From contig JAFYCM010000093.1 in the NCBI GenBank assembly GCA_017539645.1, positions 17,772 to 81,771 on the forward strand: DNA of 64,000 bases. Direction: 5' to 3'. The notes below the pieces were generated by a model. It saw nothing but the letters and a program-made list of their open reading frames with translations. It did no database searches and was not told the origin of the DNA. Positions 17,752-61,308 of this stretch are shown here, one piece after another. A program made the translations under genes and the position numbers. Each line of letters opens with the position of its first letter. Position 1 is the stretch's first letter. The DNA is from Bacteroidales bacterium. Lineage in GTDB: Bacteria; Bacteroidota; Bacteroidia; Bacteroidales; Marinilabiliaceae.

Positions 17752-17932
17752 ATCACCCAATTGAACGAATTAATACTAAACTAAGATTCGTTTCATTCGT
17801 ACCGATGTTGCCTCCCTTGCGAATTTACACGAAACATGTTTTGTTCAATTCGTATTAATTCGGTGACGTTTTTTCTAGTATCACCCAATTGAACGAATTA
17901 ATACGAAATACGTTTTCGTTCAACTCGTAATT
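17752..17932. repeat. Intergenic palindromic repeat (family A), two copies
   Basis: A long copy (17752-17866) and a degraded copy (17880-17932) begin with ATCACCCAATTGAACG; the long one ends with AATTCGGTGA. The termini are inverted relative to each other and the interior has several GAATTAAnACGAA-like words. They fill the gap between the MFS and TonB-receptor genes. Further copies are at 19179-19448, 21965-22158 and, in altered form, 26041-26120 and 61261-61308. Confidence 0.8.
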
Positions 17933-17951
17933 CATAACTCGTAACTCGTAC

Positions 17952-19130
17952 TTACCTAAGTTTATGCGCATTGTAGTGATTCTTTATAAGTATGAAGAAT
18001 ATCAACACGCCCACCAAATTGACAAATGCCGCTACGAGGAACGCTGCCATATAACTAACATACTGCGCCACCACACCGCCAATGAGCGTACCGAGACCAA
18101 TGCCAACGTCCCACGACACAAGCAACGACGAATTGGCTGTGCCACGACGCGAGTTGGGCGCAAGATTTATAAACATGGTCTGATAGGCTGGATACATGTG
18201 CCCGTTGCCCAATCCGACAATAAAAGCCGCGCCATAATAGCCAATCTCGTTGGGCACGAGCGCAAAGAGGAAATAGCCGCATAGCGATATGCTCATGCCT
18301 ACTGCCGCATTGCGCGTCACAAGACCTTGACGTAGCTTGCGGCCACCCGTCAATCGCGAGATTATCAAACCTATGGCAAGCAATAGGAAGAAGAATCCCG
18401 AACCTCCTTCGATGCCCAGTTTCTGTCGGCCATATATAGCTACGTATGTAGATACTACACCATAGGATAGCGAGAAGCACATCATAGATAGTGCTTGACG
18501 CCAACCATCGAGGAGGAAGAATCGGTCGAACGAGAGCGGGGCTTTGTCGCGAATGAGTTCGCGCTTAGGCATCTTCACCGTGGCATCTATCACCATGCCG
18601 ACTGCCGCAACGAGCATAGATATGAGAAACAGCACGTTGAAATCGCCCGTTTCGTTGTATATCCATAATGCCACCGATGGGCTGATGGCTGTTGCAACGT
18701 TGTTGCTGAGCCCATAATAGCCAATACCTTCGGCACGTCGCTCGGGGTGTAGCACATCTATTGCCACGGTGCTATTGGCCACCGTCACCGAGCCAAAGGG
18801 CGCTCCATGAAGCGTACGTACTATGGCAAAGAGCAACAGCGAACCTGCCACTATGTAGCCAGCAAAAAAGGCGAAGAAGAGCGCAAAACTGACTATTAGC
18901 ACTACCCTACGTGGAAAACTATCCACAAGATAGCCACTGAACATACGCGTAATGAGCGCCATAATGATATAGCCACTTAGCACTATACCTATGGTATGTT
19001 TATCGGCTCCAAACGTATCGTGCAAATACAACGGCAGTAGCGGCGTGAGCAACATGAATGAAAAGAATATCATAAAGTTGCCAAGCCAAATCTTGGTGTA
19101 GTTGCTATTCCACAAGCGCGGCATTTGCAT
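17952..19130 (-). CDS. Major facilitator superfamily transporter
   Basis: This inner-membrane protein of 392 residues shows 12 hydrophobic helices. The MFS loop motif between helices 2 and 3 appears as RMFSGYLVDSFPRR, and a matching motif is seen between helices 8 and 9 (SRLTGGRKLRQG). Such short MFS proteins are usually drug or small-metabolite exporters, but nothing identifies the substrate here. Both flanks are intergenic regions filled with family A repeats, so it is probably transcribed alone. The first two Met codons are close together (MQMPRLW), and either may be used. Confidence 0.85.
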   Translation of the reverse strand: MQMPRLWNSNYTKIWLGNFMIFFSFMLLTPLLPLYLHDTFGADKHTIGIVLSGYIIMALITRMFSGYLVDSFPRRVVLIVSFALFFAFFAGYIVAGSLLLFAIVRTLHGAPFGSVTVANSTVAIDVLHPERRAEGIGYYGLSNNVATAISPSVALWIYNETGDFNVLFLISMLVAAVGMVIDATVKMPKRELIRDKAPLSFDRFFLLDGWRQALSMMCFSLSYGVVSTYVAIYGRQKLGIEGGSGFFFLLLAIGLIISRLTGGRKLRQGLVTRNAAVGMSISLCGYFLFALVPNEIGYYGAAFIVGLGNGHMYPAYQTMFINLAPNSRRGTANSSLLVSWDVGIGLGTLIGGVVAQYVSYMAAFLVAAFVNLVGVLIFFILIKNHYNAHKLR

Positions 19131-42029: not shown

Positions 42030-43919
42030 ATGGTAATACATGATTGGTCATTGGAGAAAGTGTTGGATGGCATCAAAGAAGCGTTGCCTTTAGGCTTGTG
42101 GTGCATCAACTTGGACGATGACACAATTACTGGCTATGAAAAATTCCAGGAACTCGTTGGAATAAAACACCTCTCATGTTCCATCTCGGATTTCTGCAAA
42201 CACATACGCGAAGACTACCGCGACATTATAGCTAACCACATTAGCGAAATATACCGCAGCAACGAACTTGACGTCACATTCCCGACGAACAAGTATTGGC
42301 TAAATATGCACCTCACTCACTACGACGAGACGCATAACAAAGCCTACGGATACATCACCGAGACTTCGAAAGTGCGAAAATCGGCGAAAGATATGCTCCA
42401 AGACGAAGTGATAAAAGAGACTCAATTTATCAACCTCGTACTCAACAACATATCGCTATACAACATAGAAGACTCAGCCGAGAAGATTATCCAAGACTTG
42501 ATGATGGAGATTAACGCCGACCGCGTGAGCATTATTGCATACGACTTTGAGAGACAAACGCAATCGTGCACTCACAGCGTTCAACGCGATGGCATAGAAT
42601 CGAGAAAAAGAACTTTCAATGGCATACCATTCAACGTAACGCCGATAATAAACAAGTCGATGATTAGCGATGAAATCATAAGTATATATGACACATCGCA
42701 ACTCAACGACCGCGAGACCATCGAAGCCAACATCATATATTGCAACAAAAACAAATCGATACTGCTGTTGCCCCTAAAGCGCGCAGGCGAGACGTTTGGC
42801 TACATTGTGGTCGACTACATACGCGACAATAAGCACTTCACCCAATTTGAGCTCGATTGGATAAGGATAATCAGCCGATTCGTAGAGATTAGCATTATTA
42901 TTTACAAACGCGCTCAGAAAACTATAAATAGCGGCAAACAGTTTGCGAAATTCCTCGACATACTGCCGTTTGGCTATCTACAGTTAAGGATAAAGTTCGA
43001 CTCCATGGGCACCGCTACCGACCTTGTGATAGTGAACACCAACCAGCGTTTCGAATACTACATAGGCAAATCGGGCATTACGGACAAGATGGGAAGTTTC
43101 GTATTCGGCAAAGAGAATCGACACATATTAGCAAAATGCAATGAGGTGACACAAAACGGCTATCACCTACTCATAGACGACTTCTTGATTGTGAACGACA
43201 CGCCGCTCAGCGCCGACATATCTATGACCAACCTAAATGAATTTGTATGCATAGTTAGCCATAGCAACAAAGCACTGCGCGAAGCCGTAAATATAAATTT
43301 GCGAAAGAGTAATAATTATGAGCAAGAAAAAGCCGTAGAACTAAATCCAAATGTTGTATATTCGCAAAAAACTCAACTGAACACTATATTAGGTTTTTGT
43401 GAACTATTAAGTTCTGACAATAATATCGATAACCATAAAAAATATGTGGATATGATAAAGGAGAACGCAGACATGCTTAGGAACAGCGAAATCATGTCGG
43501 ACACGGACAACAATGCGAACAGCACAAGCGAAGCTACGGTGAACAACGGAAAAGGTAAGAAAGGTAATTACAAAATTCTTGTTGCCGAAGACACCGAAAG
43601 CAACTACATGCTGCTCACATATATATTGAAGGACAACTACACACTCTCATGGGCACACGACGGCATAGAAGCCATAGAAATGTATGAGCAAGAGAAGCCT
43701 GACCTCATTCTTATGGACGTACGTATGCCACGAATGAGTGGACTTGCGGCTACCATGCGTATTCGCGAGACCGATAAGGATATACCAATTATAGCACTTA
43801 CGGCCTTCGCCTTCGAGAGCGACAAAGCAAAAACACTCGAAGCCGGCTGCACCGATTTCATTCCGAAACCGATAAAAGCCGCTGCACTGAAAGAACTCTT
43901 TTCAAAATATTTGAAATAA
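42030..43919 (+). CDS. Sensor protein with PAS-like and GAF domains, eroded kinase core and C-terminal REC domain
   Basis: The 629-residue cytoplasmic protein has an N-terminal PAS-like region (about 1-115), a GAF domain (about 130-300), a further alpha/beta region (about 305-430), a short helical part and a REC domain (about 510-629). The phospho-acceptor Asp563 in LILMDVRMP and the acidic pocket in VAEDTES are intact. Before it, QLNTILGFCELL matches the end of a kinase H-box, but the His position is Tyr and no N, G1 or G2 box follows: the ATPase domain is missing. It looks like a hybrid kinase reduced to a phospho-receiver. No DNA-binding domain is present. Confidence 0.82.
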   Translation: MVIHDWSLEKVLDGIKEALPLGLWCINLDDDTITGYEKFQELVGIKHLSCSISDFCKHIREDYRDIIANHISEIYRSNELDVTFPTNKYWLNMHLTHYDETHNKAYGYITETSKVRKSAKDMLQDEVIKETQFINLVLNNISLYNIEDSAEKIIQDLMMEINADRVSIIAYDFERQTQSCTHSVQRDGIESRKRTFNGIPFNVTPIINKSMISDEIISIYDTSQLNDRETIEANIIYCNKNKSILLLPLKRAGETFGYIVVDYIRDNKHFTQFELDWIRIISRFVEISIIIYKRAQKTINSGKQFAKFLDILPFGYLQLRIKFDSMGTATDLVIVNTNQRFEYYIGKSGITDKMGSFVFGKENRHILAKCNEVTQNGYHLLIDDFLIVNDTPLSADISMTNLNEFVCIVSHSNKALREAVNINLRKSNNYEQEKAVELNPNVVYSQKTQLNTILGFCELLSSDNNIDNHKKYVDMIKENADMLRNSEIMSDTDNNANSTSEATVNNGKGKKGNYKILVAEDTESNYMLLTYILKDNYTLSWAHDGIEAIEMYEQEKPDLILMDVRMPRMSGLAATMRIRETDKDIPIIALTAFAFESDKAKTLEAGCTDFIPKPIKAAALKELFSKYLK

Positions 43920-43968: not shown

Positions 43969-44102
43969 TACCGCCCTGCAAAAGAGTTAAATTTATCTAA
44001 ATTTTAACTCATCAAGGTTAACAAATACATACAAATGCCCAATTTAGCATTGGACTTTTGTCCGAAATACCAACAATCATTAATTCCATTAATCAATACA
44101 AG

Positions 44103-46733
44103 ATGAAAAAAAATCTATTTTTATTAGGTGCGTTAGCAGTGGGGCTCGCTGCTTCGGCGCAGACCGCTACAACAAAGCGTTTGATTGACACGCAAACGTA
44201 CGACTACAAAGCGGTATATAATGATGTCACCAACAATCAGAAGATTGGCGAAAAGAATAAGAAAGGCAACCGCTTTGTTGTCAACTTAGGTTCTGGCAAA
44301 GAGGATAGAAAAGACGGCAATACTACAACCTATAAAAACTACAAGGGCACCAACATGCCTGCAAATGGTCAAGTATATATAGGTGATGAAAACAAAGTTG
44401 TAGAAGGTGGTCTTTCTGTTCCAAACGCAGGTCGCGGTTTTGTTATCGATAGTTTGGAAGTTGGTGATGTTATCACCATCGATTATACCACAAATACTGA
44501 AGGCGAGCTTTTGACTTACGCAATGGGCACATCGCTTGTAGATTCTATAGAATTTACAAAAGACGTTGATGGCACGCCAACAAAACTTGTGAGCGGCGAA
44601 ACCACAATCGCATCTGGCGAAGCAATCACCCTTGCTTCTAAAGGTAGCTTAACAACTCGCGCTCCATATTTTGCAGGTCTAACTCTCAAAGGCGCTATCA
44701 GCAAAGTAGTTATAACCCGTGGCGAGAATACCATTACTTATGACTACGCAGCAGAAGCTTCCTCAGTATTATCATTACAGTCATTTGCAACCAAGAACAA
44801 ATTGGGTAGCAACTCTAAGTTCTGGGCTAATTTGGGCGAAGGCAAAGAGCACCGTTGCGATGGCAACACTACTGGCTACAAAGAATACACTGGCACAATT
44901 CTTCCTAAAGCTATAGGCGACATCTATATTGGTGATGAAAACAAAGTTGACGCTAACGGCATGAAGATTCAAAACAAGAATCGCCAATTTGCAGTCGACA
45001 GCCTCAATGTTGGCGATAGCTTTATTGTAGAATATACTGCTAACGATGGCTCTGATATGGTATATGCAATGAGCCAAAATCTTGCTGACAGCATAATCTT
45101 TGTAAATGCAGCTGGCGACACATTGAAGAGTCAATCTTCAACAATAAAATCAGGTGAAGAGATAACATTGGTACATACTTGTAATTTAGATTCACTAAAG
45201 AAGGTATATGGAACTCGTGCACCATACTTCACAGCTATCGGTCTTCCTGGTTATATATCAAAGGTTACCATTTTGAAAAGAGAAGAGGTTACCCCTCTTA
45301 CTGTAACTGTAGCAGAGGGCATTGAGAATGGTGAGGTTAAGACCGCTTCTAAATATGAAATCGTAGCGGCTGGCGACGAAATCACCGTAACTACTACTCC
45401 TTCGGAAGGTTATGTTCTTGCAACGCTCACTGTTACCGATGCAGAAGGCAAAGAAGTAGAAGTTGCTGAGGGCAAGTTCACAATGCCTGCAAGCAATGTG
45501 ACTATTGCCGCAACATTTGCTAAAGAAGGCACTGGCGAGAAAGAAGTTTACATTGCATACGCTACCACCGAATCCGGCGTTACACATAACGCAGATTTCG
45601 CTGCTGTAGTTGACGATAAGAATGTAGCTACGAACGTAGCTGATGGCATGTCGAAAGTGACAACTACTGGCACGGCAAGCATCGAGCTTGTTGCTGTTGG
45701 CGGTACAACTCCTGCTGCTAACAAAGAAGAAGGTGGCGATTATATCGATAAAGATGGTAATGTAAGCCAATGGAACGAAATCAAGTGGGAACTCAAGAAC
45801 CAAGGCGACATCAATTTCAATTACCTCATTGGTACTGGTAATCCATACGTAGGCCTCGCAGCTGAAGAGATAGTAACCGATGGTCAACCAACCGGTACTT
45901 ATCGTGCTCAATATACATACTACGAAGAAGATGGTTCTAAGGGGCTTCCTTTGACTGGTTTGTATTATGAATTCAAAGCCAATGCTTCTGGTGCGCTCCG
46001 CGTAGGTATTTGGGCAAACAAGGGTGGCCGCATCACCTACGTAGTAGACAAAGAGACCGCTAAAGCTATGAACTATTTGGTTGAAGGCTATGTAAATGGT
46101 CAGAACAACGAAGACGGCACCAAGAAATATCTCACAAATGATGAAATCGTTGCTCTTCACAACGAAGCAGGCAAAGACAATAAATACATCATTGGTGCAG
46201 GTGGTCAGCCATTCTGGGGCTATGTAAGCTTCAACGTTGAGGCAGGCAAATCATACCTCTTGTTCCAACATAGTTCACAAGTTGGCTTCTCTGGCTACGA
46301 ATTCACCAAGGATTCTGTCATAGACATTCCTGAGACATTCAACGTGAAGATTGACGTTAGCAAACTTTCTGAAAAGGATGCAAAGAAGGTGTCAGTTTCG
46401 TCTACAGTAGTTAAGGTTGACGATAAAGTAACCCTCACCGCTAATATTCAAAATACCGATTCTGTAGTTGTTGCTACTGCAACAATTGGTGGCGAAGAGG
46501 TAGAAGTAACCAAGAACGAAGATGGTACCTTCACCGTAACCGCTACAGACAAGGGCGATATAGTATTTACAGTAGCACTTGCTAAGGAAGAAACCACTCC
46601 TACGCCAGTTAACAACATCATTGCCGACGAGCTCAATGGCGACAACACCATCTACGACCTCTCTGGCCGCAAGGTTGTTAACCCAACACGTGGTATCTAC
46701 ATCAAGAATGGCAAGAAGTTCGTGGTAAAATAA
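44103..46733 (+). CDS. Secreted protein with duplicated N-terminal module, InlB-B-like repeat and Bacteroidales C-terminal sorting-like tail
   Basis: The function is unknown. The 876-residue protein starts at the ATG at 44103, where a signal peptide (MKKNLFLLGALAVGLAASAQ) begins; a longer frame to 44058 is unlikely. Two homologous modules of about 170 residues follow, each with a VNLGSGKE/ANLGEGKE segment, a YIGDENKV word and a RAPYF segment near its end. Next is a divergent InlB B-repeat-like unit (about 400-480, TTTPSEGYVLATLTV), a jelly-roll-like domain and a second small beta domain. The C-terminus has TIYDLSGRKV and GIYIKNGKKFVVK, typical of Bacteroidales surface or secreted proteins. 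It is a single-gene unit ending at a strong terminator. Confidence 0.75.
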   Translation: MKKNLFLLGALAVGLAASAQTATTKRLIDTQTYDYKAVYNDVTNNQKIGEKNKKGNRFVVNLGSGKEDRKDGNTTTYKNYKGTNMPANGQVYIGDENKVVEGGLSVPNAGRGFVIDSLEVGDVITIDYTTNTEGELLTYAMGTSLVDSIEFTKDVDGTPTKLVSGETTIASGEAITLASKGSLTTRAPYFAGLTLKGAISKVVITRGENTITYDYAAEASSVLSLQSFATKNKLGSNSKFWANLGEGKEHRCDGNTTGYKEYTGTILPKAIGDIYIGDENKVDANGMKIQNKNRQFAVDSLNVGDSFIVEYTANDGSDMVYAMSQNLADSIIFVNAAGDTLKSQSSTIKSGEEITLVHTCNLDSLKKVYGTRAPYFTAIGLPGYISKVTILKREEVTPLTVTVAEGIENGEVKTASKYEIVAAGDEITVTTTPSEGYVLATLTVTDAEGKEVEVAEGKFTMPASNVTIAATFAKEGTGEKEVYIAYATTESGVTHNADFAAVVDDKNVATNVADGMSKVTTTGTASIELVAVGGTTPAANKEEGGDYIDKDGNVSQWNEIKWELKNQGDINFNYLIGTGNPYVGLAAEEIVTDGQPTGTYRAQYTYYEEDGSKGLPLTGLYYEFKANASGALRVGIWANKGGRITYVVDKETAKAMNYLVEGYVNGQNNEDGTKKYLTNDEIVALHNEAGKDNKYIIGAGGQPFWGYVSFNVEAGKSYLLFQHSSQVGFSGYEFTKDSVIDIPETFNVKIDVSKLSEKDAKKVSVSSTVVKVDDKVTLTANIQNTDSVVVATATIGGEEVEVTKNEDGTFTVTATDKGDIVFTVALAKEETTPTPVNNIIADELNGDNTIYDLSGRKVVNPTRGIYIKNGKKFVVK

Positions 46734-46802: not shown

Positions 46803-46834
46803 GGACTGTCACTTCGGTGGCAGTCCTTTTTTAT
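46803..46834 (+). terminator. Strong terminator with UUCG loop
   Basis: GGACTGTCAC and GTGGCAGTCC form a 10-bp stem around TTCG, followed by six T. It ends the secreted-protein transcript. The next 340 bp (to 47172) are A+T-rich and hold only the promoter at 47068-47098. Confidence 0.9.
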
Positions 46835-47172: not shown

Positions 47173-48393
47173 ATGGAAAGAAGAGTTGTAATTACTGGTA
47201 TGGGCATATATTCATGCCTTGGTAAAACGCTTGACGAAGTTAGAGACTCACTATATACAGGAAAGTCCGGTATTATATTCGACCCCGCTCGCAAAGAGAT
47301 GGGCTTCCGCTCTGCACTAACTGCAAAACTTGACATCCCCGATTTGAAAGGCGAGCTTTCGCGCAGTCAACGTGTATATATGCCAGAAGAGGCAAAATAT
47401 GCATACGTAGCTACCCGCGACGCATTGAAGCAAGCTCAACTTGACCAAGATTATCTCAACACCCATGAAGTGGGTTTGCTATATGGCAACGATAGTTCAG
47501 CTGACGCAGTGGTTAAGAGCGTAGATATTATGCGCGAGAAGAAAGACACCACCCTCGTTGGTTCGGGCGCTATCTTCCAATCGATGAACTCAACCGTGAC
47601 AATGAACCTCGGCTGCTTGTTCAAACTCAAAGGTATCAACCTCACCGTATCGGGTGCATGTGCCAGCGGTTCGCACGCAATTGGTCTTGGCGCACTGCTC
47701 ATCCGCGACGGTCTACAAGATATAGTAGTATGCGGTGGTGCACAAGAAGTCAATCCATTCTCTATTGGTAGCTTCGATGGTATCAGCGCATTCTCGGTTC
47801 GCGAAAACGAGCCTACAAAAGCGTCACGTCCATTCGACCGCGACAGAGATGGTCTCGTGCCAGGCGGTGGCGCTGCTACCGTAATTATTGAGAGCTACGA
47901 ATCGGCTGTTAAGCGTGGTGCTCCTATACTTGGCGAAATATTGAGCTATGGTTTCTCTGCAAATGGCGATCATATCTCTTCGCCAAACGTAGAAGGACCT
48001 TCGCGCTCACTCCAGATGGCTATCAAACGTTCAGGTTTGGACATCAAGGAGATTGGCTATGTGAACGCTCACGCGACATCTACCCACGTAGGCGATGCAA
48101 ACGAAGCAAAAGCAATTGCAGCAGTATTTGGCGACCACAAACCTGAGGTTACTTCAACCAAAGGTCAGACGGGACACGAGATGTGGATGGCAGGCGCAAG
48201 CGAGGTTATCTACTCAATGCTTATGATGAAGAACGACTTCATAGCAGCCAACCTCAACTTTGAGAATCCTGATGAAGATTCGATGCACCTCAATATTCCT
48301 GCAGAGCGCGTAAGTAAGCACTTCGATGTATTCCTCTCGAACTCATTCGGATTTGGCGGAACTAACTCTACGCTCATCGTAAAGAACTTGTAA
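47173..48393 (+). CDS. FabB-like beta-ketoacyl-ACP synthase
   Basis: This condensing enzyme of 406 residues elongates an acyl-ACP by two carbons. The catalytic set is intact: Cys163 in SGACASGSHAIG, His300 in NAHATSTHVGD, Lys330 and His335 in TKGQTGHE. Length and the Cys position match E. coli FabB. It is the first gene of a seven-gene operon with an ACP, two hotdog dehydratases, an exporter, an FAD enzyme and a LolA-like carrier. That company points to a dedicated polyene or unusual acyl product rather than to housekeeping fatty-acid synthesis. The usual paired chain-length factor or second synthase of aryl polyene clusters is absent here. Confidence 0.9.
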   Translation: MERRVVITGMGIYSCLGKTLDEVRDSLYTGKSGIIFDPARKEMGFRSALTAKLDIPDLKGELSRSQRVYMPEEAKYAYVATRDALKQAQLDQDYLNTHEVGLLYGNDSSADAVVKSVDIMREKKDTTLVGSGAIFQSMNSTVTMNLGCLFKLKGINLTVSGACASGSHAIGLGALLIRDGLQDIVVCGGAQEVNPFSIGSFDGISAFSVRENEPTKASRPFDRDRDGLVPGGGAATVIIESYESAVKRGAPILGEILSYGFSANGDHISSPNVEGPSRSLQMAIKRSGLDIKEIGYVNAHATSTHVGDANEAKAIAAVFGDHKPEVTSTKGQTGHEMWMAGASEVIYSMLMMKNDFIAANLNFENPDEDSMHLNIPAERVSKHFDVFLSNSFGFGGTNSTLIVKNL

Positions 48394-48430
48394 TCAATAG
48401 AATAAATCATCATAATAATAACGATAACAA

Positions 48431-48673
48431 ATGGAAAGAAGCGAACTTATTTCTAAAGTCAACAGCGTGTTGGCAGAGGAATTTGAAGTAGAAGAAAGCG
48501 TAATTACCCCAGATGCTAACATCAAGGAGACCCTTCAACTCGATAGTCTTAGCCTCGTTGATATGGTAGCACTTATTGAGAACACTTTTGGAGTAAAAAT
48601 CGTTGGTTCGGACATGCCTAAGATTCAAACATTCGGCATTCTCTACGATTACCTCGCTGAAAGAATGAAATAA
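48431..48673 (+). CDS. Acyl carrier protein
   Basis: This 80-residue acidic four-helix carrier holds the growing chain. Ser39 in LQLDSLSLVDMV is the phosphopantetheine site. It starts 37 bp after the ketosynthase stop and ends 1 bp before the next gene, so it is co-transcribed. No phosphopantetheinyl transferase is in the window, so a housekeeping one must act on it. Its sequence is not that of the general fatty-acid ACP (which reads DSLDTVE at this site in most Bacteroidales, from memory). Confidence 0.9.
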   Translation: MERSELISKVNSVLAEEFEVEESVITPDANIKETLQLDSLSLVDMVALIENTFGVKIVGSDMPKIQTFGILYDYLAERMK

Positions 48674-48674
48674 T

Positions 48675-49103
48675 ATGGAAACTCCACTTTATCAGGGAGA
48701 TTCGATAAAAAAGCTATTACTCCAGCGCGAGCCAATCTTAATGGTGGAGACACTCTATACTGCCACCGAAGATGAAGCAGAAACTGGACTCACCGTTGAC
48801 GCAGACAACATTTTCTGCGTAGATGGCGAACTTACAGAGCCGGGACTGATTGAGCACATAGCTCAGTCAGCATCGGCTTTTGCAAGTTATAAGACGTCTC
48901 TCGATGGCAACAATGAGGCGCTACTCGGCTACATAGGTGAGGTGAAAAAATTGACCATAACTGGCGATCTGCCACGCAGCGGACAAGAAGTTCGCACTAC
49001 GGTCAAAATTCAGCAAGTGGTAGGAAACATCACCCTTTTTCAAGCACAGACAACAGTTGACGGTGCACCTATCGCCAATTGTCAGATGAAACTTTCTGTA
49101 TAA
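48675..49103 (+). CDS. Hotdog-fold 3-hydroxyacyl-ACP dehydratase, FabZ/ApeP-like
   Basis: This 142-residue hotdog protein probably dehydrates or otherwise handles 3-hydroxyacyl-ACP. The family features are an N-terminal LLLQREPILMVETL (a variant of the PPMLLID stretch), the central PGLIEHIAQSASAFASY helix with the catalytic-type Glu, and a beta-sheet end. The His of the classical FabZ GHFPxxPxxPG loop is not seen, which is like the ApeP-type dehydratases of aryl polyene clusters. It starts one base after the ACP stop and is followed 6 bp later by a second hotdog gene. Confidence 0.78.
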   Translation: METPLYQGDSIKKLLLQREPILMVETLYTATEDEAETGLTVDADNIFCVDGELTEPGLIEHIAQSASAFASYKTSLDGNNEALLGYIGEVKKLTITGDLPRSGQEVRTTVKIQQVVGNITLFQAQTTVDGAPIANCQMKLSV

Positions 49104-49109
49104 CATATC

Positions 49110-49475
49110 ATGCTAAAGGATTCATACTTTCGCATAATTAGCAAAGAAGCTATTGAAAGCGGCTTTCGATTTGAAGTGAGTTTGATAGAAAGCCACCCCA
49201 TATATAACGGGCACTTCCCAGGCAACCCCGTTTCGCCTGGTGTTTGCTCCATTCAGATGATTAGAGAATGCGTCGAAGAGGCCTTGAACAAAAAGCTTAG
49301 TCTAAAGAGTATAAATGTTTGTAGATTTATAACACTGCTTACTCCACAAAAAGGAGTACATTTGCAACTCGAAATAAATTTAACAGACAATAATGACTCA
49401 GTTGACGCAAAGGCAACAATATCGGACGATGGAATTACTTACGTCAGCTACAAAGGAACCTTTGGGTTGAAATAG
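49110..49475 (+). CDS. Hotdog-fold dehydratase, FabZ/ApeI-like
   Basis: This second hotdog protein has 121 residues. It keeps the FabZ-type active-site loop YNGHFPGNPVSPG with His35, followed by a helix with VCSIQMIRECVEEAL, and a short C-terminal sheet. It is therefore complementary to the preceding protein, which lacks the His. Such a pair of unlike dehydratases is known in aryl polyene clusters, where they work as a heterodimer. That this pair does the same is inference. It is 6 bp from each neighbour. Confidence 0.78.
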   Translation: MLKDSYFRIISKEAIESGFRFEVSLIESHPIYNGHFPGNPVSPGVCSIQMIRECVEEALNKKLSLKSINVCRFITLLTPQKGVHLQLEINLTDNNDSVDAKATISDDGITYVSYKGTFGLK

Positions 49476-49481
49476 TAAGCA

Positions 49482-52004
49482 ATGATTACCAACATAGTAT
49501 TAAGGATATACCAATACTTAGCAAAGCATCGCAAAACTCGCATAACTGCCTTAGTTATAAGTAGTTTATTATTTATTGTTTTTGGTGTACAAATAGAGTA
49601 CGAAGAAGACATCACTAAACTTTTACCCTCGACGAGCGAGTCGGAAAGTGGAAGTTTGGCATTCACTAATCTGCGAGTAAAAGACAAAATTTTCTTGCTT
49701 GTAAGTTCGAAAAATAGCGAAACTGACCCTGACGAACTTGCAGAATTCACAGACACATTCGTTGCACGTCTGCGCGAAGCCGATACAGCAACGAAATACA
49801 TCGACGACATCCTCTACCAAATGGACGAGGAGACATTGCTCGATGCTATTGGCTACTTAAGTGAGAATTTCCCTTCATTCATCGATGCCGATTCGTATGA
49901 AGCAATCGACACCTTGCTGACAGACGAAAACATAGCAAGGATAATAGAGAGCAACTACAAAGCACTCACGTCGTCGTCGGCTATGGTGATGAAAGACTTA
50001 ATAGCATGTGACCCAATTGGCGTGCGCAACATACTCATAAACAAAGTAAAAGAAGTGCGCAATGGGCTCGGCAGCAACCAAACACTTTACAACAGCCACT
50101 TCTTTACGCCAGACACTACAATAGCATTGGCCTACATTTCGCCTGGCTTCAAATCGTTCGACTCGAAAAGTGGAAACAAACTAATTGAGATGCTCGAAAA
50201 CGAGATTGACAAATTCGGTGCAGAGTATCCAAACGTAAAAATACAATATCATGGTGCGCCAGTTCAGAGCGTATACAACTCGCGCCAAGTGAAGAAAGAC
50301 CTATCGCTCACGCTGTCGATTTCGCTGGTGATAATATTTATAGTGATATGGCTCTGCTTCAAAAACAAGTCGACCATACCTATGCTGCTCTTACCTGTTG
50401 GTTATGGAGCATTTTTCGCCTTAGCGATGATGTATTTCATCAAAGGCACGATGTCGCTGATGGCACTTGGCATTGGAGCCATTGTGCTCGGAGTGGCGCT
50501 AAGTTATTGTTTGCATATAATCACTCATTATAAGTATGTTAGCACCCCCGAACGCGTACTACAAGATCAAGCAAAGCCAATTTTCTTAGGCAGTCTGACA
50601 ACAGTAGGTTCGTTCTTGGGTTTGATGCTGACACAATCGGATTTGCTGCGAGATTTCGGTTTGTTTGCTTCATTCAGTTTGATAGGAACGACCACATTCT
50701 GTTTAGTCTTCCTACCTCACTTCTTCAACCCGCAGCGCAACCGCAAGTCGAAGAAAGCTTTCAAAGTTCTAGAGAGATTAAACTCGCACCCATTCGAACA
50801 ACATCGCTGGCTGATAGCATTGATAGTGATAGTTACAGGTGTGTGTCTGTATACGCAACGTTGGGTGTCGTTCGATGCTAATTTGAAGAATATAAGCTAC
50901 TACGAGCCTAAAATATCAGAGTCGGTTGAACTTCTTGCATCGAAAACGCAGCCAGGACAAGTAACGACATATTATGCAGCATCGTCGCACAACTTAGATA
51001 GTGCATTGCTCATAAGCCGCAAGATTAGTGCAACATGCGATTCGTTGAAAGCAAAGGGCTTGATAAAAGGCTACTCGAAAGCATCTTCATTATTCTTAAC
51101 AGAAGACGAAGCGCAAGAAAATATTGATGCGTGGAAAGAGTATTGGACGCCAGAGAGAATAACATACGTAAAAGGACGCATCGACAAAGAGTGCGCTAAA
51201 TACGGTCTCTCGCCAAAGTTCTATACGCCATTCTTCAATATGATAGAAGACGATATTGAGCCACAATCGCTCTACGAAGCTGAGATTATACCAAGCGGCA
51301 TAGTAGTCAACATTATTGAGCATACCGATAGTGTGTATATGGTATTTACCCCAGCGCAGATGCCCGAAGCCAACAAATCGGTTGTAGGCAAAGCCATCGA
51401 CAAAATACCAGGCTGCTTGGTAGTAGACCCAATGTTCTACACCGAAGCTATGGTTAATGCCATAAACGATGACTTCAACATAGCACTACGCTTCTCAATG
51501 GCGTTCGTATTTATAGTGCTACTCTTGTCGTACCGCAACATTTTGCTATCGCTCATAGCATTCTTGCCAGTGACGCTCAGTTGGTACATTGTGCTTGGCA
51601 TGATGGGCATGATGGGTATGCAATTCAACTTGGTAAACATCATCATATCTACGTTCATCTTTGGTATAGGCGTAGACTACAGCATATTCGTGATGGACGG
51701 TCTACTCTCTAAAGCACGTTCACAGTCGGAGCCACGACTACTGATTTATCACAAAACTGCGATATTCTTCTCGGTGCTCGTACTTATAATAAGTACAGGT
51801 TCGCTGCTCTTTGCTACGCACCCAGCACTCAAATCGATAGGCGTAGCAACGATAGTAGGCTTAGTTTCGGCATTGCTGTTAGCCTATACACTTCAGCCAT
51901 ACTTATACCATGCGTTGGTTCGACTAATGATACGCTACAAAATCAACGACAAGTGGCTACTCTCAAAACGAAAGAAAAAAGAGGAACGCGATGCCAAAAT
52001 TTGA
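49482..52004 (+). CDS. MMPL/RND family exporter
   Basis: This 840-residue inner-membrane protein has about 12 helices in two halves (first helix near 22, clusters at about 275-420 and 690-830) and two large periplasmic loops. It has the RND-like inverted-repeat plan of MMPL lipid transporters. The first half has GYGAFFALAMMYFIKG, the second FGIGVDYSIFVMDGL, with the acidic residue expected for proton coupling. In related clusters it is thought to move the finished lipid from the inner membrane. It overlaps the next gene by 14 bp, which suggests translational coupling. Confidence 0.88.
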   Translation: MITNIVLRIYQYLAKHRKTRITALVISSLLFIVFGVQIEYEEDITKLLPSTSESESGSLAFTNLRVKDKIFLLVSSKNSETDPDELAEFTDTFVARLREADTATKYIDDILYQMDEETLLDAIGYLSENFPSFIDADSYEAIDTLLTDENIARIIESNYKALTSSSAMVMKDLIACDPIGVRNILINKVKEVRNGLGSNQTLYNSHFFTPDTTIALAYISPGFKSFDSKSGNKLIEMLENEIDKFGAEYPNVKIQYHGAPVQSVYNSRQVKKDLSLTLSISLVIIFIVIWLCFKNKSTIPMLLLPVGYGAFFALAMMYFIKGTMSLMALGIGAIVLGVALSYCLHIITHYKYVSTPERVLQDQAKPIFLGSLTTVGSFLGLMLTQSDLLRDFGLFASFSLIGTTTFCLVFLPHFFNPQRNRKSKKAFKVLERLNSHPFEQHRWLIALIVIVTGVCLYTQRWVSFDANLKNISYYEPKISESVELLASKTQPGQVTTYYAASSHNLDSALLISRKISATCDSLKAKGLIKGYSKASSLFLTEDEAQENIDAWKEYWTPERITYVKGRIDKECAKYGLSPKFYTPFFNMIEDDIEPQSLYEAEIIPSGIVVNIIEHTDSVYMVFTPAQMPEANKSVVGKAIDKIPGCLVVDPMFYTEAMVNAINDDFNIALRFSMAFVFIVLLLSYRNILLSLIAFLPVTLSWYIVLGMMGMMGMQFNLVNIIISTFIFGIGVDYSIFVMDGLLSKARSQSEPRLLIYHKTAIFFSVLVLIISTGSLLFATHPALKSIGVATIVGLVSALLLAYTLQPYLYHALVRLMIRYKINDKWLLSKRKKKEERDAKI

Positions 52005-53478
52005 TACTGTAATTATAGGCGCTGGCTTAGGCGGCCTTGAATGCGGCCTGATACTCGCCAAGCACGGCAAACGTGTATGCGTAGTAGAAAAAGATGCGCT
52101 AATTGGTGGTTCGCTTCAGACGTTCCGCCGCAAAGGTTTGACGTTCGACACCGGTTTCCACTACGTAGGCGGTCTCGACGAAGGTCAGATGTTGCATACG
52201 CTCTTCGCCTATTTCGGCTTGATGGATCTGCCGTGGGTGAAGATGGATACCGACTTCTTCGACGAGGTAATTATCGATGGCAAGAGCTACAAATTTGCCA
52301 ATGGCTACGACCATTTCTGCGAGACACTCAGCGAAGCTTTCCCCGACCAAAAGGAGAACCTTCGTACGTATACAAATCTACTTCGCGAGGTTGGTCAGAA
52401 CACTATAAATAGCTTCGCACCTAAGGACGCCGATGTAGTGTATACGCAATCGCTCTTTGCGCAATCGGCATACGAATACTTATGTAAAACCATAAGTAAT
52501 CCGCTGCTTCGCAACGTACTATCTGGCACATCGCTAAAGATGGAGCTCAACCCAGCTCTTCCGCTATATACATTTGCTCAGATAAACAGTTCGTTCATTC
52601 AGAGCGCGTATCGATTGCGCGGCGGTGGTATGCAGATAGCCGAAGCGCTTCGCAAACAAATTGAAGCACTCGGTGGCGAAGTACGCCGCAATGCCGAAGT
52701 AACCGACTTCGTAGCTACGGAAGATGGCAAAATAGCGAGCGTAGTTATAAATGGTAGCGAGAGTATTGATGCCGACATGTTCATCTCGGACGTGCACCCA
52801 GCTACCACTATGAAGCTATTGCACAACAGCCATTTGGTTCGCAAAATATATAGCAAGCGCATAGAAAGTTTAGACAATACGTTCGGCATATTCACTGTGA
52901 ACATAGCTCTGAAGCCCAACATGGTGAAATATCTGAATAGAAATATTTACGCCTACCGCAACGAAGACATTTGGCAACTGCACGACAACTCGAAAAACGA
53001 TGCATCTGCCATACTTATTAGCTTCGCACCGCCTACCGATGGCACTGAATATACTCGCAACATCGACATTCTTACGCCGATGCGCTGGGAAACTGTGTCG
53101 CAATGGTATGGCACGAAAATTGGTAAACGCGGAGAAGACTATGAAAAGTTGAAACTTGAAATGGCTAAACTTTGCATAGCAGAAGCGTCGAAATACATTG
53201 ACAAGCTCGACGAAGCTATTGAGAATATATATTGTAGCACGCCTCTCACCTACGCCGACTACACCGCTACGGAACACGGCTCGGCTTACGGAATAAGAAA
53301 GGACTACAACAAACTTATGTTCACTCTGCTTACGCCTCGCACTCCAGTGGCAAACCTATTGCTGACGGGTCAAAGTTTGAACTTGCATGGCATTTTGGGC
53401 GTTTCGATGACTTCAATATTTACATGTGCTGAAATTTTAGGCATGCAAACTTTAGTTGATGACATTAAGCGACAATAA
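51991..53478 (+). CDS. FAD-dependent oxidoreductase, CrtI/phytoene desaturase-like
   Basis: This 495-residue flavoprotein has an N-terminal dinucleotide fold IIGAGLGGLECGLILAKHG with an acidic strand end (VVEKDALIGG), a middle substrate region and a C-terminal FAD motif near LLTGQSLNLHGILGVSM. It resembles carotenoid desaturases and retinol saturases, enzymes that alter conjugated double bonds. In this operon it might desaturate, isomerise or saturate a polyene chain. No other carotenoid gene (CrtB, CrtE) is in the window. It overlaps the MMPL gene by 14 bp and precedes the LolA-like gene by 9 bp. Confidence 0.85.
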   Translation: MPKFDTVIIGAGLGGLECGLILAKHGKRVCVVEKDALIGGSLQTFRRKGLTFDTGFHYVGGLDEGQMLHTLFAYFGLMDLPWVKMDTDFFDEVIIDGKSYKFANGYDHFCETLSEAFPDQKENLRTYTNLLREVGQNTINSFAPKDADVVYTQSLFAQSAYEYLCKTISNPLLRNVLSGTSLKMELNPALPLYTFAQINSSFIQSAYRLRGGGMQIAEALRKQIEALGGEVRRNAEVTDFVATEDGKIASVVINGSESIDADMFISDVHPATTMKLLHNSHLVRKIYSKRIESLDNTFGIFTVNIALKPNMVKYLNRNIYAYRNEDIWQLHDNSKNDASAILISFAPPTDGTEYTRNIDILTPMRWETVSQWYGTKIGKRGEDYEKLKLEMAKLCIAEASKYIDKLDEAIENIYCSTPLTYADYTATEHGSAYGIRKDYNKLMFTLLTPRTPVANLLLTGQSLNLHGILGVSMTSIFTCAEILGMQTLVDDIKRQ

Positions 53479-53487
53479 TTTATAACG

Positions 53488-54111
53488 ATGAAAAGAATAC
53501 TCATTTCCGCAGTAGCTCTATTAGCAACATTTTCCTCAATAGATGCACAGCTCAAAAACGCAGCTAACTCAAACGAACTTAGCACAATAAAGAGTGCTAA
53601 CGAAAAAGTACAAACCATCCAATGCCAGTTCAAAAGAACGCAAAAAATGTCGTATCTCAATTCTGACGTCACTTCGCAAGGTGACTTCTACTTTACTAAA
53701 GCCGACAAATTGAGTATGCTCTATAGCGATGGCGAGAAGATGGTGATAAACGGCGACAAAGTTGCTATTGGCAAAGATGGCAAGGTGCGCAACATGAAGT
53801 CGAAAAACCACCACGTGGAGGACCTCTCGGCTACCCTACTCTCATGTATGTCGGGCAATGTAGCAGAGCTGAATGGCACACTGAAATCGGCAAAGAAAGA
53901 GGCAAAAGAGTATGTAGTTGAGATTGCTGTAAACTTCAAAGTTGGCCGTAGCAAAATAAATGGTCTCGAACTGAAATACGACGCCAAAGATATGACGCTG
54001 AATGCGCTGAAAATGGTAGAAGAGGACGGTAGCTACACGCTATACGAACTTCAGAAAAAGACGTTGAACAAAGAGATAAACAATTCGGTTTACTCTACGG
54101 ATAAGAAATAA
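53488..54111 (+). CDS. LolA-like periplasmic carrier protein
   Basis: This 207-residue periplasmic protein has a signal peptide (ending FSSIDAQ) and a LolA-like half-barrel: VQTIQCQFKRTQKM near residue 40, SQGDFYFTKADKLSMLYSDG and GDKVAIGKDGKV. LolA carries lipoproteins from the inner to the outer membrane. This paralogue sits last in a lipid-synthesis operon, so it more likely carries the operon's product from the MMPL exporter to the outer membrane. That is inference from the co-occurrence known for aryl polyene clusters. A strong terminator follows at 54138-54175. Confidence 0.85.
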   Translation: MKRILISAVALLATFSSIDAQLKNAANSNELSTIKSANEKVQTIQCQFKRTQKMSYLNSDVTSQGDFYFTKADKLSMLYSDGEKMVINGDKVAIGKDGKVRNMKSKNHHVEDLSATLLSCMSGNVAELNGTLKSAKKEAKEYVVEIAVNFKVGRSKINGLELKYDAKDMTLNALKMVEEDGSYTLYELQKKTLNKEINNSVYSTDKK

Positions 54112-54137
54112 ATCGGCTGTTTTTAGCAAGAATATCA

Positions 54138-54175
54138 CAAGAGCTTTGGAGCAAATCTGAGGCTCTTGTTTTTTT
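54138..54175 (+). terminator. Terminator of the ketosynthase-LolA operon
   Basis: CAAGAGC and GCTCTTG form a 7-bp stem with a 17 nt loop followed by seven T. Its T run touches the stop codon of the convergent lipoprotein gene. Confidence 0.85.
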
Positions 54176-57465: not shown

Positions 57466-59517
57466 CTACTTCAGCAAGAATACTACCGAGCTGAATGCGC
57501 CCATATTTAGCGTCAAAGCATCATCGGTGGTTTTGCTATCTACCGAGCCAAACACGCCAACGCATTTATCAATATTGTCGCTGATAGGCACTTCTACTGT
57601 CGATGCAGATATGTTGTGCACTACGAGCATCTTCTGGTCGGCTGTGGTGCGATACCAAGCTGCTATTTGATTGTATTTATCGTTGTTTTTGTTGTAGGTG
57701 CCGTGTGCTTGCATTGCACCTGTGGCAAGGGCTGGATAGGTATTGCGCAGCTTAGCCATCTTTTTGTAGGCCGATAGAAGCGATGCAGTGTCGGCTTCTT
57801 GAGTTGGCACGGTCTTTATGCCGCGCGCCACTTTGCTGTCGATCTTGTCGAAAGGAGCAGTGGTCGAAGCATCGCCCCAAAGCATTGGCGAGCGTACATA
57901 TTCATCGCCATTATCCTTGCTGCCAAAGAGGCCAAGTTCTTCGCCGTAGTATATGTATGGCTGACCAGCCGATGTGAGCAACACCATGCCAGCCATGCGC
58001 TCTTTGTCGGTGGACAAGCCGAGAGTTGAGGCGGTGCGCACTTCGTCGTGGTTGGAGAGCTTGGTGGCTTCGATGTAATCGGTGCGATAGGTGGCATAGA
58101 GCTGCTGATATTCCATAATATCGCTCGCAAAATAGCGTCCGGTGTAGTTATTTATAGCATAGCTCAATCGGTTCCAGAACGAGAATTCGAAGAGCGCAGG
58201 CAAACCAGCATAGTAGGGCGCAACCACATTGTATTCGTCGAACACTTCGCCAACCATATAGAAGTCGTTGGTGTGGGTTTGCTTGTAGTATTCATTCATC
58301 TCGTTGTAAAAAGCGTTGAGGAAACGAGGGTTTTCGTCGGACGAGCCATCGTGGTAGATATGCTTCACGGCATCGAGGCGCAGGCCGTCAACGCCCTTGT
58401 CTACCCAACCCTTGGCAGCAGCCACGAGGGCTTTGTAGGGAGCACTTTCGGTGCAGCTTTCTACCGCGCCATAATTAATATCGGCAAATGTGCCTGTCCA
58501 GAAATGGCTGTGATAATAATAAGTATCCATAGTATTGAATACGATATTAGCAGCCGTGGTATTGTCGAGTTTCAGCGGAGTGCCGAGCGTAAGTTTAGCC
58601 GACGAGGACGAAGCGCCATATTTAGTGCCGCCGTCCCACGAGGTATTGCTTGTGCGAATGAGGAAGCCCCACGTTGTGTTGATGTCGACAGTGAGTTCAT
58701 ATTTATTGTTGCCCTTATTGTAGAAGCGTTTGCAGACGCCGTCACCATAATAGAGATACATATTAGTATTGGTGTCGGTATTGTCGGCATCGACGGAGGT
58801 TCCTTCGGTAACGGTGACCGTCTGCGCATTCCAGTCGAGGGTGAAAGTATATATGCCAGTAAAAGCATCGCTTTCGTCGTCGGAGAACCATTGACCGCTG
58901 TCGTAGCCCGCAGAACCTTCGTTGGCAATCATAGCTATGTTGCCAGCAGCGATGTCGGCTTGCGGATCCTTAGAGAAGATATAGTAGTCGCGATAGGGGC
59001 TATCGGCGTTGCCTTTAGCATCGATGAACCAAGGGTGCTCAACGCTGGTGTGGTTCATCACATAGTCGAGATAGATTTTTATGTCGCGTTTATGCGCCTC
59101 GGCAACGAGGTTTTCGAAGTCGGCCATAGTGCCATAATCTGGATTGACTTCGGTATAGTCCTTCACGTCATAGCCATGATATGAAGCGGCAGGATGAATA
59201 GGCGAAAGCCAAATGGCGTTAGCACCAAGGCTACTTATATAGTCCAAATGTTGAGTTATGCCGTTGAAGTCGCCCATACCATCGCCATCGGAGTCGGCAA
59301 AAGAGTATACCAAGAGTTGGTATGTTATGTTGCCACGCTTCTGGTTGTCCCACGCATCGGGCGAAGCCACAAGAGCAGCAGTCTGCGTAGATGTAGTGTC
59401 GACGGGCACAGGCGTAGGCTCGTCGGGGTGTTTGCCCTCCTCCTCTTTGCAAGCAGAGAAGTTGAGCATAGCGAGCGCCATCAGCACCGCAAGAAGGTAT
59501 TTTTTTGTATTCATCAT
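57466..59517 (-). CDS. susG: SusG-like surface alpha-amylase (GH13) with inserted starch-binding domain
   Basis: This 683-residue lipoprotein (lipobox FSAC, Cys23) cleaves starch at the cell surface. The GH13 barrel carries Asp382 (GLRLDAVKH), Glu424 (MVGEVFDEY) and Asp491 (LSNHDEVRT), each 6-7 residues before the positions I recall for Bacteroides thetaiotaomicron SusG (388, 431, 498). Residues of about 210-335 interrupt the barrel at the place of the CBM58 module of SusG. It is the last gene of the leftward starch operon after SusE, SusF and a second GH13. The two starting Met codons are adjacent; either may be used. Confidence 0.92.
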   Translation of the reverse strand: MMNTKKYLLAVLMALAMLNFSACKEEEGKHPDEPTPVPVDTTSTQTAALVASPDAWDNQKRGNITYQLLVYSFADSDGDGMGDFNGITQHLDYISSLGANAIWLSPIHPAASYHGYDVKDYTEVNPDYGTMADFENLVAEAHKRDIKIYLDYVMNHTSVEHPWFIDAKGNADSPYRDYYIFSKDPQADIAAGNIAMIANEGSAGYDSGQWFSDDESDAFTGIYTFTLDWNAQTVTVTEGTSVDADNTDTNTNMYLYYGDGVCKRFYNKGNNKYELTVDINTTWGFLIRTSNTSWDGGTKYGASSSSAKLTLGTPLKLDNTTAANIVFNTMDTYYYHSHFWTGTFADINYGAVESCTESAPYKALVAAAKGWVDKGVDGLRLDAVKHIYHDGSSDENPRFLNAFYNEMNEYYKQTHTNDFYMVGEVFDEYNVVAPYYAGLPALFEFSFWNRLSYAINNYTGRYFASDIMEYQQLYATYRTDYIEATKLSNHDEVRTASTLGLSTDKERMAGMVLLTSAGQPYIYYGEELGLFGSKDNGDEYVRSPMLWGDASTTAPFDKIDSKVARGIKTVPTQEADTASLLSAYKKMAKLRNTYPALATGAMQAHGTYNKNNDKYNQIAAWYRTTADQKMLVVHNISASTVEVPISDNIDKCVGVFGSVDSKTTDDALTLNMGAFSSVVFLLK

Positions 59518-59523
59518 GTTGTT

Positions 59524-59600
59524 AGTTAGGAGTTACGAGTTATGAGTTACTAGTTACTAGTTACGAGTTATGAGTTATGGAAGGGGGCATGCCCCCTTGT
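59524..59600. repeat. Direct-repeat run and 18-bp palindrome between the two GH13 genes
   Basis: Words GAGTTACGAGTTATGAGTTAC repeat over 59524-59578, related to runs at 17925-17950 and 19131-19176. An exact palindrome AAGGGGGCATGCCCCCTT (59581-59598) follows. It may work as an intercistronic hairpin within the operon; there is no T run. Confidence 0.6.
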
Positions 59601-59613
59601 TGATTGTTGATTC

Positions 59614-61251
59614 TCAATTCTCAACCCAAATGCTATAGCCGCGAGCTTCAGCGCCGAGTTCTACCCTACCATCTGAGCCAACGGTAACCGTTTCATTGGT
59701 ATTACAAATATTTACGAGCGTCTTGCCCGACCAATCGCTAAAGCCATCGGCATTAACATCTACGGTGAGCGACTTAGCCTGGTAGTCATCATTATTTATA
59801 ACCACTATAGCGCCACTCTTAGTGCCATTGCCCTGACGACGTGCAACGTAGACATTTCGCAAATTCTCTTTAGGCTCGGGGTTGCCAACCTCGCTAAGCA
59901 CGGCTATCGTTCCGCCCAGATAAGTCTTACGTATATGTATGAGCTTGGTAATCTCTTCGCCAAGGTCGGCAGGCGGCATGAGCGTATAGTCGTTGTCTTG
60001 CGCATCGGTCATGATGTCGCCAAAGAAGTGCGAATAGAATATGCATGGCGTACCCTCGTGCGTAAGTATGTATGCATAGGCGAGCTTAATATCGCGCGTA
60101 ATCCACTTGTCGTACTCTTTGCCAGTGTCGTGATTCTCTACGAAGGTAACCACCGAACTGCTCGGAAGCGATGCGCCATATTGGTTGCGGACGAGTCCGG
60201 CGTGGTTGAGCCAAGCCATATTGAACTCGCTGCCATCCTTGTTGCACATGTCGGTGAGCATAAACTTGAGCGGGAAGTCGAACGCATGGACGCTAGCACC
60301 CTGCGCGGCAACCGCCTCGACCCACTCTTTGATGTATCGACAATCTTGAGCCCAATATTCACCAACGACAAACGGCTGCTGTCCATCTTGCTTAGGCAGA
60401 TTATTTACCCATTTAGCCACAAAATCCGTTGTCAATCCGCGGACGAAATCCATGCGGAAACCATCGAAACCAATCTTTTCCTTCAGCCACTTGCCCCAAT
60501 CGCAAAGGCGCTGAGCCACCTCGGCATCGTTAGTATTGAGGTCGTTGCCAAAGAATTTGGTATTTGGGCGCAACACATCGTCGGCAAAGTCGGTAAGCGA
60601 GTCGGTAGCCGACGACGGGTGGAAGTGGTTGTAGTGCCACTCGTAGTTGGGCTCGTTGGCATGAGTTGGATAGAAAATATTTGTGCGAGTATGCGCCGTA
60701 GAATCGTCGGACCAACGAATTTCGTCATCGGGGTAAGGTTCATATTTATAATTATGCTTAGCATAATCTGTCACCGCCGGATTAGCCTCGAAATTGTCGT
60801 CGCCACCGTAGAGATGGTTGAGCACCACATCGCTATATACATATATACCGTTCTGATGCATAGCGTCAATCATCTGCTGGAGCTCGGCGCGGCTGCCGTA
60901 GCGCGTCTCTACACTACCCTTCTGGTCGTACTCGCCGAGGTCGTAGTGGTCGTAAATGCCGTAGCCACTGTCGTAGATGCCCCAATTGCCTTTGGCGGGC
61001 ACAGGAGTCCACACGGCAGTGATGCCCGCTTCGCTGAGCTCGGGGGCAATCTGCGCAAGGTGATTCCACCAAGTGCCATTGAGATTAGCGTCGTCGACGG
61101 GCACGTCCCAATAGAAGGCCTGCATGAGCACGTCGTTATCGGGTGTCGGTTGAGACTCGGAACAACCGAAAAGCAGGCAACCCATAGGTATTGCCCATAG
61201 AGTGCCTGCTAATTTTGATGCTAAATGCATAAATAAGTATTTGTGTTTCAT
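59614..61251 (-). CDS. Second GH13 alpha-amylase lipoprotein of the starch locus
   Basis: This 545-residue alpha-amylase has a signal with lipobox LLFGC (Cys30; a Cys also occurs at 25). The N-terminal part (QAFYWDVP, YDSGYGIYDHYDLGEYDQKG) resembles the liquefying-type amylases of GH13 subfamily 5. Catalytic residues are Asp268 (GFRMDFV), Glu298 (VVGEYWAQ) and Asp375 (FVENHDTG). I start at the ATG at 61251; the longer frame to 61272 runs into a palindromic repeat. It lies between SusF and SusG genes, in the same direction, and probably adds a second amylase activity on starch. Confidence 0.88.
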   Translation of the reverse strand: MKHKYLFMHLASKLAGTLWAIPMGCLLFGCSESQPTPDNDVLMQAFYWDVPVDDANLNGTWWNHLAQIAPELSEAGITAVWTPVPAKGNWGIYDSGYGIYDHYDLGEYDQKGSVETRYGSRAELQQMIDAMHQNGIYVYSDVVLNHLYGGDDNFEANPAVTDYAKHNYKYEPYPDDEIRWSDDSTAHTRTNIFYPTHANEPNYEWHYNHFHPSSATDSLTDFADDVLRPNTKFFGNDLNTNDAEVAQRLCDWGKWLKEKIGFDGFRMDFVRGLTTDFVAKWVNNLPKQDGQQPFVVGEYWAQDCRYIKEWVEAVAAQGASVHAFDFPLKFMLTDMCNKDGSEFNMAWLNHAGLVRNQYGASLPSSSVVTFVENHDTGKEYDKWITRDIKLAYAYILTHEGTPCIFYSHFFGDIMTDAQDNDYTLMPPADLGEEITKLIHIRKTYLGGTIAVLSEVGNPEPKENLRNVYVARRQGNGTKSGAIVVINNDDYQAKSLTVDVNADGFSDWSGKTLVNICNTNETVTVGSDGRVELGAEARGYSIWVEN

Positions 61252-61260
61252 AATAATAAT

Positions 61261-61308
61261 ATCACCGAACAAAGCGAATTTACAAATTGGTTCGTTTCGT
61301 TCGGTGAT
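61261..61308. repeat. Palindromic repeat related to family A, before the second GH13 gene
   Basis: ATCACCGAAC and GTTCGGTGAT are inverted ends, with AAAGCGAA and TTCGTTTCG inside. The 48 bp element shares the outer ATCACCGAA/TTCGGTGAT with family A but has a different interior. It lies 10 bp before the ATG at 61251, so it would sit in the mRNA leader as a hairpin. Confidence 0.65.

Follow-up and report, generated by a model that had tools for sequence, protein, structure and literature searches.

The window analysed here is a 64,000-bp stretch of contig JAFYCM010000093.1 from a gut bacterium of the Marinilabiliaceae (Bacteroidales), and it carries a compact seven-gene operon at 47173..54111. 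In our view this operon encodes the central part of a self-contained pathway by which an unsaturated acyl lipid is made and exported; the pathway would derive from flexirubin-type polyene synthesis by loss of the aryl starter, of the methyltransferase and of the ketosynthase-chain length factor pair (probability about 0.55). The best reading is a stand-alone, probably non-aryl polyene-lipid pathway, and it is based on the gene set, the residues kept, a separate ketosynthase lineage and the occurrence of related modules on their own. A preliminary description of the window had suggested an exported polyene-like lipid; homologies to enzymes of chain extension and dehydration and to export proteins, together with five genomes that hold the module alone, are consistent with it.

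All seven open reading frames (ORFs) lie on the + strand with the starts and ends implied earlier, and an ORF check confirmed the gaps of 37 bp or less and the single 14-bp overlap (37, 1, 6, 6, −14 and 9 bp in operon order). Pfam and NCBIfam searches gave the order KS-ACP-DH1-DH2-MMPL-FAD-LolA, that is, a beta-ketoacyl synthase (KS), an acyl carrier protein (ACP), two hotdog dehydratases (DH1 and DH2), an MMPL exporter, a CrtI-like flavin adenine dinucleotide (FAD) enzyme and a LolA-like carrier, which bore out the families first assigned, that of DH1 weakly. In the same searches no ketoreductase (KR), second synthase, aryl starter enzyme, acyl- or glycosyltransferase, or methyltransferase was found among the seven genes.

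The KS gene (47173..48393) encodes a FabB-like synthase of flexirubin lineage with the Pfam ketoacyl-synt domain. Cys163, His300 and His335 are kept on inspection of the sequence and, as in FabB, form the presumed catalytic triad; in the ACP (48431..48673; PP-binding, 35.5 bits) Ser39 of an LDSL motif is presumably the phosphopantetheine site. The KS is 39.6% identical to E. coli FabB, with the triad in common, and 35.1% identical to ApeR, and it scored 365.7 bits with the FabB model NF005935, below the curated cut-off of 630; in trees it grouped with flexirubin-type KSs. Flexirubin-type rows in these trees were KSs beside HAL, KR, LPLAT or FlxJ. Module KSs were assigned by genomic neighbours in place of identity, because a KS of 73% identity, that of genome G088, sits in a full flexirubin-type cluster; identity alone was dropped as a marker for this reason.

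In the first tree one branch (support 100/98) separated 25 module rows from 19 flexirubin-type rows, and with FabB, ApeR and the FabF of the same genome as outgroups the root lay among the flexirubin-type rows. Long branches joined at this point, and a second tree was therefore built with FabB as sole outgroup and without EcApeR, that FabF, L087, L088, L134 and L142; the last two had first been labelled module, and no FAD enzyme or dehydratase gene lies beside the KS in their stretches. The split was again recovered (23 module and 17 flexirubin-type rows, 100/99), with the root still on the side of the flexirubin-type rows and the G088 KS adjacent to the module group. The module KSs are one group, a lineage separate from the flexirubin-type KSs. 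Descent of the module from flexirubin genes appears likely from these trees, the rooting being unsure.

DH1 (48675..49103) and DH2 (49110..49475) match, by sequence, the two halves of the ApeP:ApeI dehydratase one to one and keep complementary residues. The family match of DH1 is weak (NCBIfam FabZ, 1.3e-5; no Pfam match at 1e-3), and DH2 is a FabA/FabZ-like hotdog protein. Compared with the ape proteins of E. coli CFT073, DH1 matched ApeP (2e-7; profile 95%, with ApeI at 0.3%) and DH2 matched ApeI (blastp 5.9e-8; hhalign 92.7%, with ApeP at 0.7%). DH2 has His35 in a GHFPG motif; DH1 has EHIAQ with Glu60 and no HFPG His, in agreement with the unlike pair, one member with the active-site His, recognized at the outset. 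All 27 DH1-type rows, flexirubin-type ones included, keep the Glu of EH(I/M)AQ and have no HFPG motif, and all 22 DH2-type rows keep the His of GHFP with the FabZ Glu position variable. The alignments A1 and A3 (20 rows each) and A2 (24 rows) cover a selection of the available loci. Sequence searches of the PDB gave 6qsr_A for DH2 (phmmer, 0.0041) and chance-level rows only for DH1. Such a pairing of unlike dehydratases is an already known arrangement, because ApeI and ApeP are reported to pair into a heterodimeric dehydratase that has one active site (PMC8041823; PDB 6qsr).

Like aryl polyene and flexirubin clusters, the operon has both an MMPL exporter and a LolA carrier. The MMPL/RND-type protein (49482..52004, 840 aa) matched PF03176 in two stretches (78.8 bits) and E. 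coli ApeM (8e-11); its hydropathy profile has overlapping segments and gives no clean helix count. The LolA-like protein (53488..54111; PF03548, 36.4 bits) is a predicted periplasmic carrier with an N-terminus that by eye resembles a signal peptide. It scored 112.8 bits with LolA2_flexi (NF053544), below the curated cut-off of 125, and had no match to ApeL by blastp at E 10. Work on F. johnsoniae describes lolA2 and lolB2 as always present in flexirubin-type loci, with a proposed role in moving the pigment (PMC11885536).

The FAD enzyme (51991..53478), whose start overlaps the MMPL gene, belongs to the amine-oxidase/CrtI-type family and was found to have the carotenoid-desaturase (CrtI/CrtD-like) fold. 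Its scores for CrtD (121 bits, cut-off 549.7) and CrtI (88.5, cut-off 238.1) are both below the family cut-offs, and it is only 19% identical to the gamma-carotenoid desaturase of the CrtI/CrtD family in PDB 4rep. In a tree of 45 rows (42 different sequences) the six non-module FAD enzymes split from the module ones at 100/100. These six genes make up ten rows, two genes being from G003 and one each from G004, G009, G032 and G179; the G004 gene is at most a putative member of a flexirubin cluster.

The preliminary description had taken the CrtI-like enzyme to be foreign to aryl polyene clusters, which is true of the E. coli ape cluster but is not supported for Bacteroidales. A CrtI-like gene adjoins MMPL in the flexirubin-type cluster of G179 (L152), stands beside KS, ACP and HAL in that of G009 (L088), and is present in two copies in that of G003 (L070). 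In this last locus (8972-18223) the two tandem genes lie among KS genes together with a 431-aa protein that is radical SAM-like by eye. Among 34 sampled genomes with FlxJ, a FAD homologue was in the flexirubin-type identity range in 27, only of module type in 5 and not found in 2, at search thresholds (1e-60, 1e-100, 1e-50) that miss weaker homologues; FlxJ was above its curated cut-off in 18 of the 34, and 17 of these 18 had a FAD match.

The module also occurs without a detectable flexirubin set. Outside the genus of the window, module-type KSs were followed in 12 genomes (G017, G032, G048, G069, G092, G119, G125, G149, G196, G225, G235 and G243); G162 (L153), with module-type FAD and dehydratase genes and no module-type KS found, was left out. 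Five of them (G092, G119, G149, G196 and G235; completeness 95, 99, 99, 95 and 99%) have exactly two PF00109 proteins, the module KS and one FabF-like by score. No FlxJ was found in these five at the threshold used, no match to the aromatic lyase in G092 and G235, and the lyase matches of G119, G149 and G196 are above the HutH cut-off and fail FlxA. All five operons contain, on the FAD side, an FlxB-type KR above the FlxB cut-off; a thioesterase (TE) is inside the operon or right after it in each, and PlsC is present in four, as are MMPL and LolA together. A LolA-like gene, which in the window is nearest to LolA2_flexi, thus accompanies the module in four genomes for which neither FlxA nor FlxJ was found. 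The order is KR-TetR-PlsC-KS-ACP-DH1-TE-DH2-MMPL-FAD-KR-LolA in G092 (L062) and G196, PlsC-KS-ACP-DH1-TE-DH2-MMPL-FAD-KR-LolA in G149, PlsC-KS-ACP-DH1-TE-DH2-FAD-KR in G235 and KS-ACP-DH1-DH2-MMPL-FAD-KR-LolA-TE in G119.

More widely, 61 of 247 genomes have both the KS (54% identity or more) and the FAD enzyme, with three holding the KS alone and three the FAD enzyme alone. The gene-order search proposed earlier found the seven-gene order in five other genomes of the genus, hence in 6 of 15 with the window's own, one of the six with PlsC in front; in this survey G006 was cut at a contig end and G014 was unmapped. The FAD gene is in all 15 genomes of the genus and FlxJ in 13, the window's own included. 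Five (G005 and G010-G013) have a FAD-LolA pair with no MMPL before it, and at L049, L050, L052, L053 and L060 this pair stands without KS, ACP and MMPL in the stretch examined, which for L052 (G012) covered just 1.8 kb upstream. Two Paludibacteraceae metagenome-assembled genomes have TetR-KS-thioesterase-FAD (L057 5372-9184 and L058 7638-11461), with no ACP, dehydratases or exporter in the stretch examined. Homologues of HAL, FlxJ, KSb, KSc, CLF (chain length factor) and ligase were found at none of 38 annotated module or part-module loci, within the stretches examined; the module was thus not seen there beside full aryl polyene genes, the arrangement that the preliminary description had named as a refutation of its idea.

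Compared with flexirubin (flx) clusters of Bacteroidota, the operon shares the KS lineage, ACP, ApeP/ApeI-like dehydratases, MMPL, a LolA2-like carrier and, with the Bacteroidales versions (G003, G009, G179), the CrtI-like enzyme, and the reductase of its relatives passes the FlxB cut-off; it differs in having a single KS and no FlxA, FlxJ, ketosynthase-CLF, ligase or glycosyltransferase. With the E. coli CFT073 ape cluster (gene table in PMC8253772) it has in common the ApeP/ApeI pair, an ApeM-type exporter, a FabB-like KS comparable to the second KS ApeR, an ACP and a LolA-like carrier (ApeL there), but it has no ApeO-ApeC, ApeH, ApeB, ApeQ, ApeJ or ApeD and has the CrtI-like enzyme in addition. 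Five of six Bacteroidetes classes are reported to contain flexirubin-type clusters (PMC9248904), and those of Chitinophaga are described with LolA, deacetylase, acyltransferase, glycosyltransferase and exporter genes (PMC3992019). Among open-licence papers, searched by titles and abstract starts, no account of the stand-alone module was found.

Besides the window operon, the genome has a separate, scattered flexirubin-type set. The earlier statement that further cluster genes are missing is correct for the operon; such genes lie elsewhere in the genome, outside what the preliminary description could cover. Neither FlxA lyase nor an ApeH-type ligase is in the operon, but locus C29, on another contig, has FlxA (788.7, cut-off 700) and FlxB (396.2, cut-off 340), both above NCBIfam cut-offs, beside an ACP and an LpxL-like acyltransferase; FlxB there is the counterpart of the ketoreductase (ApeQ/FlxB) that the operon lacks. 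The operon also lacks a ketosynthase-chain length factor pair, and at C16 there are two further KSs and a CLF-like fragment, together with FlxJ (579.8, above the cut-off of 560), an ApeP-like hotdog protein, a thioesterase, an ACP and a polysaccharide deacetylase. The CLF-like protein (L066, 12192-12713) has 173 aa, about half of the 318 aa in G179, and may work shortened, because it is 99% identical in the sister genome G001. Locus C50 has a LolA2-like protein (112 bits, cut-off 125), an ApeI-like hotdog protein and a GT2 glycosyltransferase, and C36 an MMPL protein with an acyltransferase domain; in G001, LolA, ApeI, GT and MMPL are contiguous.

These loci raise the alternative that a single flexirubin-type aryl polyene pathway is spread over five loci of this genome, with the operon as the one that supplies the FabB-like KS and the CrtI-like enzyme, both lacking at the other four. 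The presence of the other four loci in the same genome speaks for it, as does the fact that only one KS of the window type and no close second FAD enzyme were found in this genome (G000) and G001. We nevertheless regard it as unlikely. The other loci have their own ApeP-, ApeI-, LolA2-, GT- and MMPL-like proteins, which makes the operon a second, paralogous set; the module KS is a separate lineage; five genomes have the module with no flexirubin set found; and G009 carries the module in addition to a flexirubin-type KS and FAD enzyme. The related idea of a flexirubin cluster split in two, with the operon as its missing half, was weakened by the separate ApeI-like, LolA2-like, GT2 and MMPL genes at C50 and C36.

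Several observations weigh against a self-contained polyene-lipid pathway. The lack of a second KS or close FAD paralogue in G000 and G001 means that the module may also serve the aryl polyene; the other 7 of the 12 genomes outside the genus hold further KSs, FlxJ or an FlxA-like lyase by score; and the counts across genomes are without phylogenetic independence. The window operon has no KR, TE or acyltransferase of its own, G002 and G003 of the genus have the operon without DH1 and DH2, and neither MMPL nor LolA is beside the module in some relatives (e.g. L054, L057, L058, L139, L140). His61 of DH1, next to Glu60, is also invariant in 20 rows. The outgroup branches in both KS trees are very long, so that the module KSs are likely, but not proved, to be derived. 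Finally, the KS resembles FabB more closely than ApeR, and its median conservation is 82%, compared with 34-66% for its operon partners (counting matches over 70% or more of the query length among 30 loci), which a fatty-acid enzyme might also show. That the operon merely tunes ordinary fatty acids, with a FabB-like KS, an accessory dehydratase, a FAD desaturase or isomerase and a transporter recycling or exporting membrane lipid, is nonetheless improbable, as a FabF-like KS is present besides the module KS in all five stand-alone genomes, the KS group neighbours flexirubin-type KSs in the trees, the dehydratases are ApeP/ApeI-like and LolA is nearest to LolA2_flexi, though below its cut-off.

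For the self-contained polyene-lipid pathway, we infer the following catalytic steps, product and direction of export. The KS would add malonyl units to a growing acyl chain carried by the dedicated ACP, and the keto group would be reduced by an FlxB-type or FabG reductase from elsewhere in the genome. Borrowing of missing steps from fatty-acid synthesis, as first proposed, is one option here, next to the FlxB-type reductase at another locus; many relatives carry their own reductase, thioesterase or acyltransferase inside the operon. DH1 and DH2 would then form one composite dehydratase site, with Glu60 from DH1 and His35 from DH2, and the double bonds would stay because the set has no enoyl reductase. 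Release or transfer of the chain may follow, by a thioesterase or PlsC-type acyltransferase to judge from the relatives, after which the CrtI-like enzyme could desaturate or isomerise it, or possibly act as a reductase. MMPL would extract or flip the lipid and LolA would carry it toward the outer membrane. A conjugated acyl chain is the likeliest product because of the missing enoyl reductase, the polyene-type dehydratases and the KS lineage. It is probably a short polyene, by analogy with ApeR, since the operon has a lone FabB/ApeR-like KS and ApeR is reported to give up to four double bonds in vitro (PMC8358021).

The operon lies between two terminator-like hairpins on the + strand, both consensus matches only: a 10-pair stem followed by TTTTTTATTT at 46803..46826, 5' of the operon, and a 14-pair stem followed by TTTTTTATTG at 54137..54169, 3' of LolA. 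The whole region has 8 such sites against a mean of 7.2 in shuffled sequences, which is no excess. No match to a Bacteroidales-type promoter motif was found upstream of the KS. Between a response-regulator-like gene (42030-43919) and the operon is a secreted-looking protein of 891 aa (44058-46733), the end of which resembles a sorting domain; PlsC acyltransferase occupies its place in the related genome of L043. Two adjacent alpha-amylase-like genes (by eye) lie on the minus strand at 57466-61272, with further secreted-looking proteins to the end of the window, and this part is probably a starch-use locus.

E. coli aryl polyenes are reported to guard against oxidative stress (PMC8253772). Annotation with the FlxB model will also assign flexirubin biosynthesis to genomes for which we found neither FlxA nor FlxJ. 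In the literature searched we found no explanation of what the CrtI-like enzyme does in the Bacteroidales clusters. The stripped module, with one KS, a composite dehydratase, a FAD enzyme and an export route, is small enough for direct tests of what the FAD enzyme and pathway-specific LolA proteins do. Rather tentatively, the module may stand for polyene lipids of an undescribed class that is widespread among gut Bacteroidales, free of aryl groups and built by a single ketosynthase; an enzyme of carotenoid-desaturase fold would have been recruited to this fatty-acid-type polyene, and a dedicated MMPL-LolA route would take the lipid to the outer membrane.

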